Positions 51,551 to 56,443 of a stretch of DNA of 64,000 nucleotides are shown here, piece by piece; position 1 is the stretch's first letter; each line of letters begins with the position of its first letter. A model generated the notes under the pieces. That model was given only the letters and a program-made list of their open reading frames with translations. It searched no databases and had not been told where the DNA came from. The DNA lies in NCBI RefSeq assembly GCF_002216065.1, contig NZ_CP022282.1, positions 124,001 to 188,000 on the forward strand, written 5' to 3'. Source of the stretch: Chryseobacterium sp. T16E-39 (lineage in GTDB: Bacteria > Bacteroidota > Bacteroidia > Flavobacteriales > Weeksellaceae). Both the position numbers and the translations under genes were made by a program.

Positions 51551-52660
51551 ATGAAAAAACAAGTTTTGATCTCAGGGGCAAGCTTTGCCGGATTAACATT
51601 AGCCTATTGGTTAAACAAATTTGGTTATAAGGTGACAGTCGTAGAAATCGGCAAAGAGCTTAGAAGCGGCGGTTCACCCATCGATGTCCGTGGCAAAGCC
51701 CTGGATATTGTAAAAGAAATGGGAATACTACAAAAAATAAAAGACCAGGAATTTATCCATACCGATGAGGTTGTCAATGCCAAAGGTGAAACACTCACTA
51801 CTTTTTCAATCAATGCACTGGAAGAATATCTCGGTGATATTGAAATCCATCGCAGCGACCTGGTAGATATTATTTTTGATATTGTTCCTAAGGATGAAGT
51901 CGAAATTGTTTTCGGAAACAGCATAAAAACATTGATCCAACATGAAGATCGGGTTGATGTGTCCTTTGAACATGGAGCGGACAGAAGTTTTGATTTTGTA
52001 TTTGGGGCAGATGGTACGCACTCTATTGTAAGGAAACTTGTATTCGGTCCTGAAGAAAATTTCAAAAAGTTTTTCGGTGTTTACTTTGCTTTTGCTAAAG
52101 CGGATCATATAGAAACAGGTAAGTCGGGTAATACGGGAATCGTATACCGGGAGTTGGGTAAACAAGCTGTTATCTACCATTTTAAAGAGGGAGCGAACGC
52201 TATACTCATGTTTAGAGCACCTCAATTGGATTGGGATTATAGAAATAATGAACAGCACAAACAAATTCTGAAAGAATATTTTGGCAACAATACGAATTGG
52301 AAAATCCCTGAAATATTAGATACCATGCTGCATTCTGACAATTTGTATTTTGATGAAGCCTGTCAGATTCATATACCGAACTGGACGAAAGGGCGTGTTG
52401 CCTTACTTGGAGATGCAGCACATGCTCCAAGCTTTTTTACAGGAATGGGGACAAGTCTGGCTTTACAAGGTGCAACGTTGCTAGCAAAGGAGCTTAACGC
52501 CAATGATGATTATAGAACTGCTTTTGGGAAGTATCATGAAATTTTCAAACCAGTTGCAGAAGACATTCAATCCCGCATTACACGAGGGTTAAAAGTGCAG
52601 CTACCCGAAACAGAAGAAGAGTTACAGGCATCTTTTGCGGCGATGACTAATAATCCATAA
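51551..52660 (+). CDS. FAD-dependent monooxygenase (aromatic hydroxylase family)
   Basis: A 369-aa flavoprotein. The N-terminal FAD motif GASFAGLTLAYWL (7-19), the DG motif GADGTHSIVRKL (~155), and the second FAD motif LLGDAAHAPSFFTGMGTSLAL (~285) are all present, as in PHBH-like/TetX-type hydroxylases. The substrate is not evident, and a tetracycline-inactivating role cannot be called from this. Divergent from an AraC regulator, and followed by a small peptide gene 66 bp away. Confidence 0.88.
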   Translation: MKKQVLISGASFAGLTLAYWLNKFGYKVTVVEIGKELRSGGSPIDVRGKALDIVKEMGILQKIKDQEFIHTDEVVNAKGETLTTFSINALEEYLGDIEIHRSDLVDIIFDIVPKDEVEIVFGNSIKTLIQHEDRVDVSFEHGADRSFDFVFGADGTHSIVRKLVFGPEENFKKFFGVYFAFAKADHIETGKSGNTGIVYRELGKQAVIYHFKEGANAILMFRAPQLDWDYRNNEQHKQILKEYFGNNTNWKIPEILDTMLHSDNLYFDEACQIHIPNWTKGRVALLGDAAHAPSFFTGMGTSLALQGATLLAKELNANDDYRTAFGKYHEIFKPVAEDIQSRITRGLKVQLPETEEELQASFAAMTNNP

Positions 52661-52725
52661 AAATTAAGAGCTATTTTATAGTTAATTTATTTATATTTGA
52701 TAAATAACCATAAAATAAAAAATTC

Positions 52726-52896
52726 ATGAAAAATTTTAAGAAAATTTCAAGACAAGAAATGAAATCAGTTATCGGATCAGGTACTCCTATCACATGTCCT
52801 GCAAAATACTATCTTAAATGTGAATCTATTTATGTTTGTGATCCTGATCAAGGCATTTATGACTGTGTTTGTTCTTGTGTTCCAATCGGATCTTAA
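52726..52896 (+). CDS. 56-aa Cys-rich bacteriocin-like peptide
   Basis: Encodes 56 aa. The leader MKNFKKISRQEMKSVIGSG closely follows that of the two peptides at 16510 and 16687 (MKNLKKI..), but the double glycine is replaced by GSG. The core has six Cys: TCPAKYYLKCESIYVC and YDCVCSC. The ATG has an A-rich upstream. The gene lies between the FAD monooxygenase gene and its own terminator. Same family call as the other two; antibacterial function is not shown. Confidence 0.78.
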   Translation: MKNFKKISRQEMKSVIGSGTPITCPAKYYLKCESIYVCDPDQGIYDCVCSCVPIGS

Positions 52897-52912
52897 AAAG
52901 AATTTTTCATAT

Positions 52913-52949
52913 GAAAAAAAAAGCCATCTGTAATAGGTGGCTTTTTTTA
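52913..52949 (+). terminator. terminator of the small-peptide gene
   Basis: AAAAGCCATC / GGTGGCTTTT stem with a 7-nt loop and a T-run. It starts about 20 bp beyond the peptide stop codon. Confidence 0.8.
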
Positions 52950-53108
52950 TGAGATAATCTATTGAAAGTCATTAGAGTAAAGTGCCATGCGAAAGGATTC
53001 GTGAGGCAGCGGGGGGATTTTTTTCTACTTATGTATCAAGTTAATATTCTAGAAATTGCTTTCTTTAGTTCAACACTATTAAACAATGAAGAAACTCATT
53101 AAATGCTT

Positions 53109-53534
53109 TTAATTAACTTGTATTGAATGTTTTTCTCTTAATTTTTGGAGGGCTATTTTATCAGTAAGTAGTCCAAAGGGATTATCATTTATATCTATCC
53201 ATTCGAGCCTATTAATATCATCTGTATTCACTTTAAGATTTTCAACGTCAAGAATTCTTGCCGTATAGTAGATTATAAGGATTTGGCTTCCGTCAAATAT
53301 AGACTGTATAAAATCTTCCTGTGTATAGAGATGACCTGTAATTTCAATTTTAACATTTAGTTCTTCCAAAAATTCCCTGTGGAGACAATCCAGAATTCCT
53401 TCTCCAAATTCCAAGCCACCACCGGGCAACTTACAATAAAATTCTTCCTTGTTATACTCGTAAACTGTCAGCATCTTTCCTTCATGCTCACAGATAGCAT
53501 AAACCCTTATATTAAAACCATTAATTTTATTCAT
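53109..53534 (-). CDS. NUDIX hydrolase behind a TPP riboswitch
   Basis: A 141-aa single-domain NUDIX protein. The NUDIX box spans ~38-60 (GGGLEFGEGILDCLHREFLEEL) with the REFLEE core Arg53, Glu54, Glu57 and Glu58. It hydrolyses a nucleoside-diphosphate-X or similar pyrophosphate. The 5' leader contains a TPP riboswitch and a terminator hairpin, and this gene is the only one behind it. That suggests a thiamine-related substrate (thiamine pyrophosphate, HMP-PP or an oxidised derivative), an inference from the regulation, not from residues. Confidence 0.85.
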   Translation of the reverse strand: MNKINGFNIRVYAICEHEGKMLTVYEYNKEEFYCKLPGGGLEFGEGILDCLHREFLEELNVKIEITGHLYTQEDFIQSIFDGSQILIIYYTARILDVENLKVNTDDINRLEWIDINDNPFGLLTDKIALQKLREKHSIQVN

Positions 53535-53569
53535 AGAGCCTGTTTAATTTATAAATTATTAGGCTTTAG

Positions 53570-53611
53570 AGAAAAAGAAATCAGCCAACTATCCATAATG
53601 GTGCCGGCTGC
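53570..53611 (-). terminator. riboswitch expression platform: terminator hairpin
   Basis: On the minus strand CAGCC pairs with GGCTG (stem bases 53606-53610 and 53581-53585) and is followed by ATTTCTTTTT. It lies directly after the TPP aptamer, so bound TPP would end transcription before the NUDIX gene. Confidence 0.65.
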
Positions 53612-53688
53612 TTTTCCCTACGACGGTATTAACCGTATCAGGTTCAAAGAGACTCTCTCAATTTCGTATAGAAATACCCCTAAAGCTT
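53609..53688 (-). ncRNA. TPP riboswitch (THI element)
   Basis: Read on the minus strand the sequence has the conserved order TTTAGGGGTATT, then TTGAGAGAGTCTC, then TTTGAACCTGATACGG, then TTAATACCGTCGTAGGGAA. These are the P2/J loop, THI-box and P4/P5 segments of the TPP aptamer. GCTTT/AAAGC closes P1. A -7 box TATATTTG (53691-53698) lies just upstream, so the transcript begins near the aptamer's 5' end. Confidence 0.92.
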
Positions 53689-53690
53689 AG

Positions 53691-53698
53691 CAAATATA
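53691..53698 (-). promoter_or_regulatory. -7 box of the riboswitch transcript
   Basis: Minus-strand TATATTTG matches the consensus and lies immediately before the aptamer. No clear -33. Confidence 0.55.
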
Positions 53699-53805
53699 CT
53701 AATTCTAAAAACTCTCAGTAAAAAGAATATTTAAACATTTCAGTTTGATTTATTAATTAATTTCATTATATTAGAGAATAAGACTCTTGTGTCTTATCTA
53801 ATTTT

Positions 53806-54084
53806 ATGTTTAAAGAAATGAGCGAGTCTATTGAAAGACTCCAAAATGTAGCGGCGTTAGAATTTATAAAAAATGTGGATTTTTCTAGTAGTATACTAGG
53901 TGAAAATCTGATGCAGGATCTTAGATCAGCTACTAAAGCCTTTGATGACTTATCAAATAAATTGAAAATGGATACGTCACAAGTAAGTTTAAGAACTGGG
54001 GCCGAAGTATATTGTAATTACGGTACTATAAGACCAGAAGATATTAATTATGAATATAAAGTAATGGTATCCATCAGAAATTAA
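53806..54084 (+). CDS. small protein of unknown function
   Basis: A 92-aa protein with an amphipathic, mainly helical N-terminal half (SIERLQNVAALEFIKNV, QDLRSATKAFDDLSNKL) and a beta-like C-terminus (EYKVMVSIRN). I do not recognise the family. It has no signal peptide. An ATG at 53821 is also possible. A short inverted repeat ATAAGAC / GTCTTAT (53778-53797) precedes it and a terminator follows. Confidence 0.55.
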   Translation: MFKEMSESIERLQNVAALEFIKNVDFSSSILGENLMQDLRSATKAFDDLSNKLKMDTSQVSLRTGAEVYCNYGTIRPEDINYEYKVMVSIRN

Positions 54085-54086
54085 TA

Positions 54087-54121
54087 ACAACAAAACTGCC
54101 CCTTAATTGGGGCTTTGTTTT
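54087..54121. terminator. bidirectional terminator between convergent small genes
   Basis: GCCCC / GGGGC with TTAATT loop, bordered by CAAAA and TTTGTTTT. It lies between converging small genes at 53806 and 54120. Confidence 0.75.
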
Positions 54122-54479
54122 AATTATCATCCAAAGAAAACATTTTTTGAAATTTGAGAAAACATAGGTATTGTAACATATGAACATGTTGAGTTTCCTC
54201 ATTGAAAAAATTATCTGCTCCATCTAGATCAAATCGAATTAATACTTGCCGATCTTTTGTGAATCTAATTTCAACACTTTTACTTTCTGAATGTTCATAT
54301 CTCCAACAGTCGTAACATTTTCTAAATCCAAAATCATTAAGCCATCCATCGTCTAATCTTATTGGTTCAATTTGTGTAATTTCCTCATTAGTAATTTTTT
54401 CTAATAATTGATCGTCAATTATTGTACGATCTCCGTTTATATTGACATAACTGCCAATAATTATTTTATCTTTTTTCAT
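54120..54479 (-). CDS. small Bacteroidota phage/accessory-type protein, unknown function
   Basis: A 119-aa protein. The order IGSYVNINGDRTIIDD, then IEPIRLDDGWLNDFGFRK, then a beta section, then HVHMLQYLCFLKF near the C-terminus follows a small protein family common in Bacteroidota mobile or phage-related regions (its members end in a VHxLQxLYF block). No activity is known. Two Cys, CYDCWR, may bind a metal. Confidence 0.6.
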   Translation of the reverse strand: MKKDKIIIGSYVNINGDRTIIDDQLLEKITNEEITQIEPIRLDDGWLNDFGFRKCYDCWRYEHSESKSVEIRFTKDRQVLIRFDLDGADNFFNEETQHVHMLQYLCFLKFQKMFSLDDN

Positions 54480-54514
54480 AATACAAAAATAATATTACTA
54501 CTTAAGAATAGCAA

Positions 54515-54541
54515 AAGCATTAATCTGACAATTAATGCTTT
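54515..54541. terminator. hairpin with A/T flanks upstream of the 54120 gene
   Basis: AAGCATTAAT / ATTAATGCTT, 10 bp, with CTGACA loop and TTGTGTT after. No gene ends here, so it may be a relic of a lost gene. Confidence 0.45.
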
Positions 54542-54602
54542 GTGTTGTGTGCTTATTGGATAGGGGTTTATACGAGTTCTACCATTTGCTATATTCTAAC
54601 TC

Positions 54603-54768
54603 TTTTTCCCTTTGCTGGCGCGAGCATCTTGCTCGTGTCCATATAAATAATATGTTACAAAATAATTCGAGAAACTTAAGTCTCTTGAATTATTCATTAT
54701 TTTTTCGGTTTAAATTTATACTTATAAATGGGCAACGAGCGTGACGCTCGCGCCAGCGTGGGGAAAAA
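54603..54768. mobile_element. 166-bp foldback element, MITE/REP-like
   Basis: The left end (from 54603) reads TTTTTCCC, then GCTGGCGCGAGC at 54614-54625 and GCTCGTG. The right end read inversely is nearly the same: TTTTTCCCCAC, then GCTGGCGCGAGC, GTCAC, GCTCGT. The two arms are about 38 nt long and mostly identical. Each arm has an inner GAGC...GCTC hairpin, and the A/T-rich middle has AATAATTC / GAATTATT as another. It encodes nothing; GC content is much higher than its surroundings. Confidence 0.7.
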
Positions 54769-54913
54769 TTCGGAATGTCTAATCAAGTTTTCATAGAATT
54801 GGCAAAAAGTGATTCAGATTTTTATTATCTAAGACATACAATAACTAAAGATTGTATATTTTTTTAGGAAAATCAAATAAGTTAGATGTCATTCAATAAG
54901 AAGGCTTTTTTGT

Positions 54914-54921
54914 TATATTTG
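54914..54921 (+). promoter_or_regulatory. -7 box of the 54936 gene
   Basis: TATATTTG at 54914-54921 overlaps the in-frame GTG at 54921, so that codon cannot be the start, and the ATG at 54936 is chosen. Confidence 0.55.
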
Positions 54922-54935
54922 TGAAAACTAGTAAC

Positions 54936-55679
54936 ATGGAGTATAAAGAGCAATTAAAAAATTTAGATTATAGTAAGGTCAATAATTTCCTTAGTGAAAA
55001 TACTCTGAACTTTGGCAATAGAACAGTTGTAACATCAGCAATACTAATTTTAGCGTCGCTTAATTTCTTGAGTATAGAAGGGATTGAAATAGAAGGAATT
55101 ACATTATCAATAAATACTACAATAATAATTGTCGTTATTTTACTTGTTAATCTGTACTATTATCAACAGTTTTTTATTTCTTTAAAGGTAGATGATAGTA
55201 AATATGTATCACCTGAAGAATATACTCAATTTGGAAAAGATTTAAATACCGTATCCGAACCAATAAAGGCTCAACTACTAGAATATATAAGCAAAGGAAA
55301 AGAAATGACTGAAAAATTGGTAAGTCCCGATTTGACGGCAAAAGAGGGATTGAAATTAGAGAAAGAAGTTTCATTAGTTTATGAAGAAATTAAAAAATTT
55401 CAGGAAATCTTAGAGAGAACTAAAAATGCTGTAATTGCTGATAATCTAAAAGCTCAAAAATTTGCCAAACTCACAAATAGTTATAATAGATTGAATGCCA
55501 GGATGCCTAAATGGATTTATTATTTAGGCCTTGTATCAGTAATTTTTAGATTCATTATATTTTCTTATCAAGTTTATAAAATTCAAGAGCATCCATTGGA
55601 TTATATTATTGAGAATGAGATGAATTATTATAAAGTGATTTTTGAAAGTAAAGAACTAAAAGATGCTTTAAAAAAATAA
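54936..55679 (+). CDS. membrane protein of unknown function
   Basis: 247 aa from the ATG at 54936 (a GTG at 54921 lies in the -7 box). Two hydrophobic segments near 35-75 form a hairpin, and one more lies near residues 180-205 (MPKWIYYLGLVSVIFRFIIF). A long coiled-coil-like region (~100-170, KEMTEKLVSPDLTAKEGLKLEKEVSLV) lies between. No family recognised. Situated in an accessory region with no operon partner. Confidence 0.6.
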   Translation: MEYKEQLKNLDYSKVNNFLSENTLNFGNRTVVTSAILILASLNFLSIEGIEIEGITLSINTTIIIVVILLVNLYYYQQFFISLKVDDSKYVSPEEYTQFGKDLNTVSEPIKAQLLEYISKGKEMTEKLVSPDLTAKEGLKLEKEVSLVYEEIKKFQEILERTKNAVIADNLKAQKFAKLTNSYNRLNARMPKWIYYLGLVSVIFRFIIFSYQVYKIQEHPLDYIIENEMNYYKVIFESKELKDALKK

Positions 55680-55701
55680 AGTAGCCATTGCTTTGAAATA
55701 T

Positions 55702-56289
55702 CTAGAATAAATTCCCCTTTTGTTCCAAAATACTATATACAACACCTCTTTTACAATATTTAGTGTCGCCCATCGAATATTTCACAACAACTATTTTTTC
55801 AGGATTAGTTTTACTATCAAATTGAAAGTCAATTAATCCTTTTTTATCATTTTTACTTTTTAATCCAAAGGCTAGATGACCAGAAATAGGACCTCCAAAT
55901 ACAACTGAAAGAACGATTCTTTTATCACTGTTTGTTTTATTTTTGAAAACGGGGATTACATGGAGCTCTGTCATTCCTTTTCTAAACGAAAAGTCGTATT
56001 CTTGGGTTCTAACTGAATAAGTTCCTGAGAGGTTTTTTAATAATATATCATATTTTAACTTACTATCTACATTGTCATAGTCATCTTTTAAAATTAGCTT
56101 TTCACTAAAAATAGAATCTGATTCTATATTGTACATGGTATTTATCGAAGCCGAATTATCGTCTTCAATGTTAAAAGCAAAGGCTATTATTGCCAAGATG
56201 AAAAAAGATGCTGTCAGAGCCCCAATAATAATGAAAAATGTTTTCAGGCAACCACGTGTTTTTTGAGGTTTTGTAACAATATTATCCAT
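55702..56289 (-). CDS. membrane-anchored protein of unknown function
   Basis: 195 aa from the ATG at 56289, chosen over an ATG 18 bases upstream so that the polar start (MDNIVTKPQKTRGC) leads into a single membrane helix (TFFIIIGALTASFFILAIIAFAF). The rest is beta-rich and should lie outside the cytoplasm (TYSVRTQEYDFSFRKGMTELHVIPVF). No family recognised. Divergent from the XRE gene; a palindrome pair lies between. Confidence 0.6.
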   Translation of the reverse strand: MDNIVTKPQKTRGCLKTFFIIIGALTASFFILAIIAFAFNIEDDNSASINTMYNIESDSIFSEKLILKDDYDNVDSKLKYDILLKNLSGTYSVRTQEYDFSFRKGMTELHVIPVFKNKTNSDKRIVLSVVFGGPISGHLAFGLKSKNDKKGLIDFQFDSKTNPEKIVVVKYSMGDTKYCKRGVVYSILEQKGNLF

Positions 56290-56321
56290 GATTTTAATTT
56301 TACACAAAGAAAGAAAATATA

Positions 56322-56348
56322 ACTATATAGTCTTTACGGTAAACCGTA
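56322..56348. promoter_or_regulatory. putative XRE operators between divergent genes
   Basis: Two palindromes: ACTATATAGT (56322-56331) and TACGGT-AA-ACCGTA (56335-56348). A -7 box TATATTTG at 56415-56422 then precedes the XRE gene. Confidence 0.4.
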
Positions 56349-56443
56349 ATATATGGCAAAAAATGGAATTTATCAATTAGATATAAACAGAACATATAAA
56401 ATCCAATTTTTCTCTATATTTGTACAAAGCACAACAAACCACT

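Follow-up and report, generated by a model that had tools for sequence, protein, structure and literature searches.

A thiM-type TPP riboswitch upstream of a lone NUDIX hydrolase gene in Chryseobacterium sp. T16E-39

In the genome of Chryseobacterium sp. T16E-39 we identified a TPP riboswitch whose target is unusual, a single NUDIX hydrolase gene standing alone; the arrangement is singular within what was searched. This type of vitamin-B1 riboswitch normally precedes B1-making genes. The window, that is the whole stretch of 64,000 nucleotides analysed here (G000:C1:124001-188000), belongs to a single-contig genome of 4.87 Mb. Our overall reading, to which we assign a probability of about 0.55, is that a working TPP OFF switch of the thiM type has been joined, in a variable slot, to a Flavobacterium-like NUDIX gene whose product would act on a thiamin-linked substrate. 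Since a full aptamer and a kept expression platform directly precede the lone gene, TPP repression is the natural reading of the leader, in agreement with what the initial annotation had claimed, and we consider it highly probable that the NUDIX gene is regulated by TPP.

On the minus strand, positions 53691-53598 match the Rfam TPP model RF00059 with 75.0 bits (gathering score 54.3, E 5.8e-13), and the match covers the model from end to end (1-105). The P1 stem is formed by GCTTT (53686-53682) and AAAGC (53614-53610). The aptamer with a closing P1 that had been read from the letters is therefore complete and scores above the Rfam threshold. Its 5' P1/P2 strand, GCTTTAGGGG (53686-53677), can pair either with the P1 3' strand or with a downstream strand that we call anti-P1. 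Three further RF00059 hits are found in the same genome, for a total of four: one of 79.1 bits ahead of the thiS-thiC operon, one of 73.7 bits, lower than that of the window, ahead of thiM-thiE-thiD-tenA-HAD phosphatase, and one of 40.5 bits, below the cut-off, ahead of a TonB-receptor plug domain protein. Directly abutting the aptamer is the probable promoter box TATATTTG (53698-53691, minus strand), which has the form TAnnTTTG. The box proposed earlier stands in sequence and position, and it is probably a Bacteroidetes -7 box. Boxes just 5' of the aptamer also occur elsewhere, as TACATTTG or TATATTTG in thiM-type leaders and as TAACTTCG-like sequences in thiC-type leaders.

The open reading frame behind the leader (53534-53109, minus strand, 141 amino acids) matches PF00293 with 44.2 bits against a cut-off of 21.1. 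Its Nudix box reads G39-x5-E45-x7-R53-E54-F-x-E57-E58, followed by N60 where the consensus has G, and residues E45, R53, E54, E57 and E58 are invariant across 42 aligned sequences. By both score and catalytic box the protein therefore falls within the Nudix family, the box being intact except for this G to N change at its end. No thi gene or transporter adjoins the gene, and the next gene (52726-52896) lies on the plus strand, which confirms the earlier description of a lone 141-amino-acid NUDIX gene. All 12 named NCBIfam NUDIX equivalog families listed, among them NudI, MutT, NudC, RppH and PRK08999, remained below their cut-offs; the best score was that of NudI (20.5 bits vs 95), and the NUDIX-ThiE fusion PRK08999 reached 19.2 vs 245. 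Structure comparison returned a generic MutT-like fold with tied matches. Comparison with NudJ-type HMP-PP hydrolases gave a weak profile match (E 0.00098) and a structural match that was likewise tied.

The unit is located in a variable slot (52655-56384) that is occupied by other genes in G179, a sister genome. Flanking sequences of the two genomes match at 90-92% up to 52654 and again at 86% from 56385, and between these points the 3.7 kb with the riboswitch-NUDIX unit is replaced in G179 by about 7.1 kb (L172:7240-14346), including a Dam-family methyltransferase and a DGQHR-domain, DndB-like protein. The sole piece shared inside the slot is one 119-nt repeat stretch (54628-54746). It is part of an inverted repeat at 54603-54768 with 34-nt arms that are 82% complementary, and it recurs in G179 directly after the FAD gene; the inverted repeat may mark an edge of the slot. 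This FAD gene (51551-52660, plus strand) encodes a monooxygenase (PF01494) related to a tetracycline destructase model, far below the cut-off of that model (232.3 vs 550). The plus-strand gene at 52726-52896, in the same variable slot, encodes a 56-amino-acid bacteriocin-like peptide with a Chryseobacterium leader (NF047798, 35 bits vs 23.5). PADLOC returned a single weak match, PDC-S07, at 35.4 bits.

At E<=1e-40 the NUDIX gene of the window was found in 1 of 173 genus genomes, and at family scale in 5 of 320, namely the genome of the window plus four from another genus, whose copies are 53-54% identical. In the Flavobacterium group, relatives of 54-67% identity were found at E<=1e-36 in 11 of 348 genomes. 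We collected 110 loci with NUDIX relatives (20 + 16 + 20 + 20 + 17 + 17, some being the same place twice), with flanks of about 1.5 or 4 kb that were shorter at contig ends. An Rfam TPP match at the gathering score was present at only one of the 110, the window's own locus (L005). A loose regular expression for the THI motif, applied to 106 of the loci, matched L005 and 17 others, and Rfam backs none of the 17. The initial annotation had tied its reading in part to conservation of the riboswitch-NUDIX order in related genomes. On these counts a conserved order is rejected, which removes the support that conservation would have given. Since Flavobacterium-group relatives have no Rfam TPP hit nearby, this NUDIX family works elsewhere without TPP control. 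In our view the absence of conservation points to a single, recent joining event and not to a switch that has died. A literature search found no paper that treats Chryseobacterium together with a TPP riboswitch, and we claim this absence only within the search made.

Gene and leader appear to differ in origin. The nearest database proteins are from Chryseobacterium sp. G0240 (P0002, 80%) and from Flavobacterium (P0007, P0010 and others, 62-67%). In a tree whose bootstrap had not settled, the window protein pairs with that of G0240 (100/98); the next node (96/91) adds a clade in which the named members belong to Flavobacterium, and a genus-wide copy falls elsewhere. Each of the 88 genus genomes examined contains a relative at about 50-56% identity, broken by a stop in G063, and the window genome has this genus-wide relative too, as a paralogue. 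The closest named relatives of the paralogue are Chryseobacterium, with 85.6% nucleotide identity to Chryseobacterium sp. BLS98 (L078). In a further observation, a tRNA gene directly precedes a more distant NUDIX relative at five Flavobacterium-group loci (L158-L161, L165). Four Flavobacterium genomes of the clade have as their strongest TPP hit a thiC-like one, 69-72% identical to the window core, and a second hit that is weak. Among the matches listed from 171 genus genomes, the best for the leader was the thiM leader of G057 (87%, 95 nt, E 1.2e-23). The thiM leader of the window genome itself matched at 85% over 78 nt (E 1.3e-16), and recent copying of it is not favoured. Positions 53000-53800 of the window found no plasmid match. 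A Weeksellaceae-type leader thus seems to have been joined to a Flavobacterium-type gene, a joining that we infer from these comparisons.

The aptamer core of the window is 86-90% identical to 13 thiM-type rows from 12 places (L003 and L130 being the same), and only 69-76% identical to the remaining rows compared. By sequence, the leader is of the type that precedes thiM-thiE-thiD-tenA. An alternative partner for P1, as sought in the expression platform of a TPP switch, is provided by the anti-P1 strand TCTCTAAAGC (53572-53563, minus strand), which can base-pair with the 5' P1/P2 strand. Its equivalent, with 9-10 nt of complementarity to that strand, was present in 49 of 49 distinct leaders, counting that of the window, at a position some 42-52 nt 3' of the aptamer GGGA. 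These are the leaders that fitted the search pattern (L001, L003, L099-L128, L131-L145, L147 and the window); L004, L146 and L148-L154 did not fit and were not counted. The loci were taken mostly from the best-scoring ones, which are of thiC type, and start codons were chosen by rule, so that a few may be wrong (L121 looks so). The 5' P1/P2 strand has the common form [G/A]CTTTAGGGG, and anti-P1 is mostly TTCCTAAAGC or TTCCTGAAGC in the thiM type and TTCCTAAAGT in the thiC type. The end pair between the two strands is G-C in the thiM type and A-T in most of the thiC type; L100 and L104 have an A-C mismatch there, and L115 and L121 have G-T. In mononucleotide shuffles of the downstream sequence, the pairing score of the window was reached in 0 of 200, and those of the other leaders in at most 5 of 200.

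We extended the comparison to nine further families of the order with a set of 19 leaders, several of which are closely related. In 13 of them a strand able to pair with the AGGGG side was recognised by eye (5 of TTCCTAA type, 8 of GCCCCT type). With 300 dinucleotide shuffles as the background, a script placed 5 of the 19 at p<0.05; L199, one of these, is not among the 13. The anti-P1 element is evident in leaders of Weeksellaceae and Flavobacterium, and outside these groups it is suggestive. Together with the hairpin that separates it from the aptamer, it may form a shared translational platform in TPP leaders.

Folding of the window leader indicated how such a platform could act. When P1 was enforced in the minimum-energy fold, a stem of AGCCT (53565-53561) and AGGCT (53541-53537) just 5' of the ATG formed unforced, and it disappeared when anti-P1 was enforced. 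The free RNA favours anti-P1 (-42.6 vs -38.2 kcal/mol). In 45 of the 49 leaders, pairing of the start region was higher with P1 formed (means of 0.56 vs 0.35). For the window it was paired 0.60 in the P1 state vs 0.39 in the anti-P1 state, and when a longer 3' end was folded it was less paired in the P1 state (0.57 vs 0.65); because the longer end reverses the difference, window-specific support for occlusion depends on the span folded. The window leader and the genome's own thiM leader (0.47 vs 0.49) are among the 4 exceptions. In these folds the leader behaves as a translational OFF switch would, from which we infer the TPP response, the OFF sign and the translational level of the window switch. 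In the mechanism that we propose, bound TPP would hold P1, leaving the downstream strand CTAAAGCC free to form the AGCCT/AGGCT sequestor (53565-53537) by the start codon, and this stem would lower translation. When TPP is absent, GCTTTAGGGG would leave P1 and pair with TCTCTAAAGC, the sequestor stem would be broken, and the enzyme would be made. The hairpin at 53610-53582 would serve mainly as a spacer for this strand exchange. Translational strand exchange is, in our judgement, the probable mode of control.

Control would instead be transcriptional if TPP promoted a genuine terminator at the hairpin, as the initial annotation had it. The segment 53615-53570 folds at a stable -13.8 kcal/mol, the hairpin (53610-53582, between P1 and anti-P1) is followed by a T-rich tail (53577-53571), and thiM-type leaders are likewise T-rich after it, so that the structure itself was described correctly. 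Its role as a terminator is doubtful: a hairpin stands at the same place in other leaders (45 rows compared; L139 and L140 failed the pattern although the anti-P1 element is present in both), and thiC-type leaders keep it without a U-run. No competing strand was found 5' of the hairpin, and anti-P1, positioned beyond the T-rich tail, could not act before termination and so cannot decide it. A terminator scan of 53400-53850 listed a single site, at 53841-53824, and not the hairpin; the scan looks for an uninterrupted stem with a loop of 3-8, and the inner loop of this hairpin could have let it escape. A conserved spacer hairpin is the more likely identity, and we regard terminator control as unlikely.

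We weighed two further explanations. A mobile NUDIX gene may have been captured behind a copied thi leader, in which case the riboswitch works and the substrate, in nucleotide clean-up for example, is unrelated to thiamin. The single occurrence among 173 genus genomes, the position in a variable slot, the generic fold, the weak matches to named NUDIX families and the relatives that lack a nearby TPP hit all speak for such an event. However, promoter box, aptamer and anti-P1 are all present, which is more than a chance landing must keep, and the stem at the start site uses the NUDIX gene's own upstream bases. Capture with an unrelated substrate is a real possibility, to which we give distinctly less than even odds. 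The leader might alternatively be a decaying relic that supplies a promoter and has lost its TPP response, as the single occurrence could suggest, together with the one of two occupancy calculations that showed no occlusion in the P1 state. Decay fits poorly with a full-length 75.0-bit aptamer and with the retention of P1, anti-P1 and the promoter box, and we consider it improbable.

ThiC, ThiM, ThiE, ThiD and TenA all scored above cut-off in the genome, as did ThiL (314.9 bits), TPK (128.5 bits), ThiG and ThiF. The ThiG protein was found by Pfam and gave nothing in the NCBIfam scan, a radical-SAM/BATS protein was taken as ThiH, and ThiS was named by reading only. With ThiL, TPK and two thi operons present there is no obvious gap, and a missing pathway step as the role of the NUDIX enzyme is not supported. 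Salvage of thiamin by TPP hydrolysis fits poorly, because the enzyme would be made when TPP is scarce. Under that regime it would most likely cleave a pyrophosphate belonging to, or competing with, thiamin metabolism, and candidates are damaged or antivitamin thiamin diphosphates and HMP-PP analogues. By analogy, a thiamin-related substrate is a tentative proposal whose chances we put a little short of even. Adenosine thiamine triphosphate has the general build of Nudix substrates, a nucleoside diphosphate linked to X, and its cleavage, or that of thiamin-capped RNA, would give TPP back. Such a TPP-recovery hydrolase, produced solely at low TPP, is a long shot; if it were true, the riboswitch would complete a feedback circuit fed from stored, adenylylated B1.

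The anti-P1 strand (TTCCTAAAGC/T and variants) offers a concrete, testable model of TPP control for Weeksellaceae and part of the other Flavobacteriales. The unit itself would be a TPP regulon of one gene, the product of which has yet to be placed in B1 metabolism, and screening the enzyme directly could reveal what it cleaves. The unit further points to re-use of a thi leader ahead of a gene from another lineage. If the unit were only a captured promoter, its interest would be small.

The function of TPP riboswitches in Bacteroidetes is called uncertain in the excerpted text of PMC5613172. Among known systems, the Flavobacterium NUDIX proteins (L035-L038) and P0002 of G0240 share the clade of the window protein (support 96/91); unlike the window, the Flavobacterium loci L035-L038 have no Rfam TPP hit. 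E. coli NudJ/YmfB is a hydrolase of HMP-PP and antivitamin pyrophosphates, as summarised in excerpts of PMC5158307, and is 15% identical to the window protein, with a structural match that is equalled by MutT, Ap4A hydrolase and others. Oxo- and oxythiamin diphosphate are substrates of Nudix enzymes from yeast and plants according to the same excerpts (PMC5158307). Like the window protein these are Nudix enzymes, with a part in thiamin damage control, and they differ in being eukaryotic and in that TPP control is not known from those excerpts. A Nudix gene downstream of a putative TPP riboswitch, as in the window, has a counterpart in yzgD of the Paenibacillus thiaminase I operon (excerpt of PMC5627462). 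In contrast to the lone, single-domain window gene, yzgD is described there as a member of a multi-gene operon, preceded by thiM, thiD and thiE, and as having an additional HAD domain. The leader itself is most directly compared with that of thiM-thiE-thiD-tenA in the same genome (L003/L130), whose core is 88% identical, with the same P1 (GCTTT/AAAGC), a hairpin, and an anti-P1 strand CCTAAAGC at a similar distance. The bases around the start codon differ between the two, and whereas that leader heads a thiamin operon, the window copy heads one NUDIX gene.
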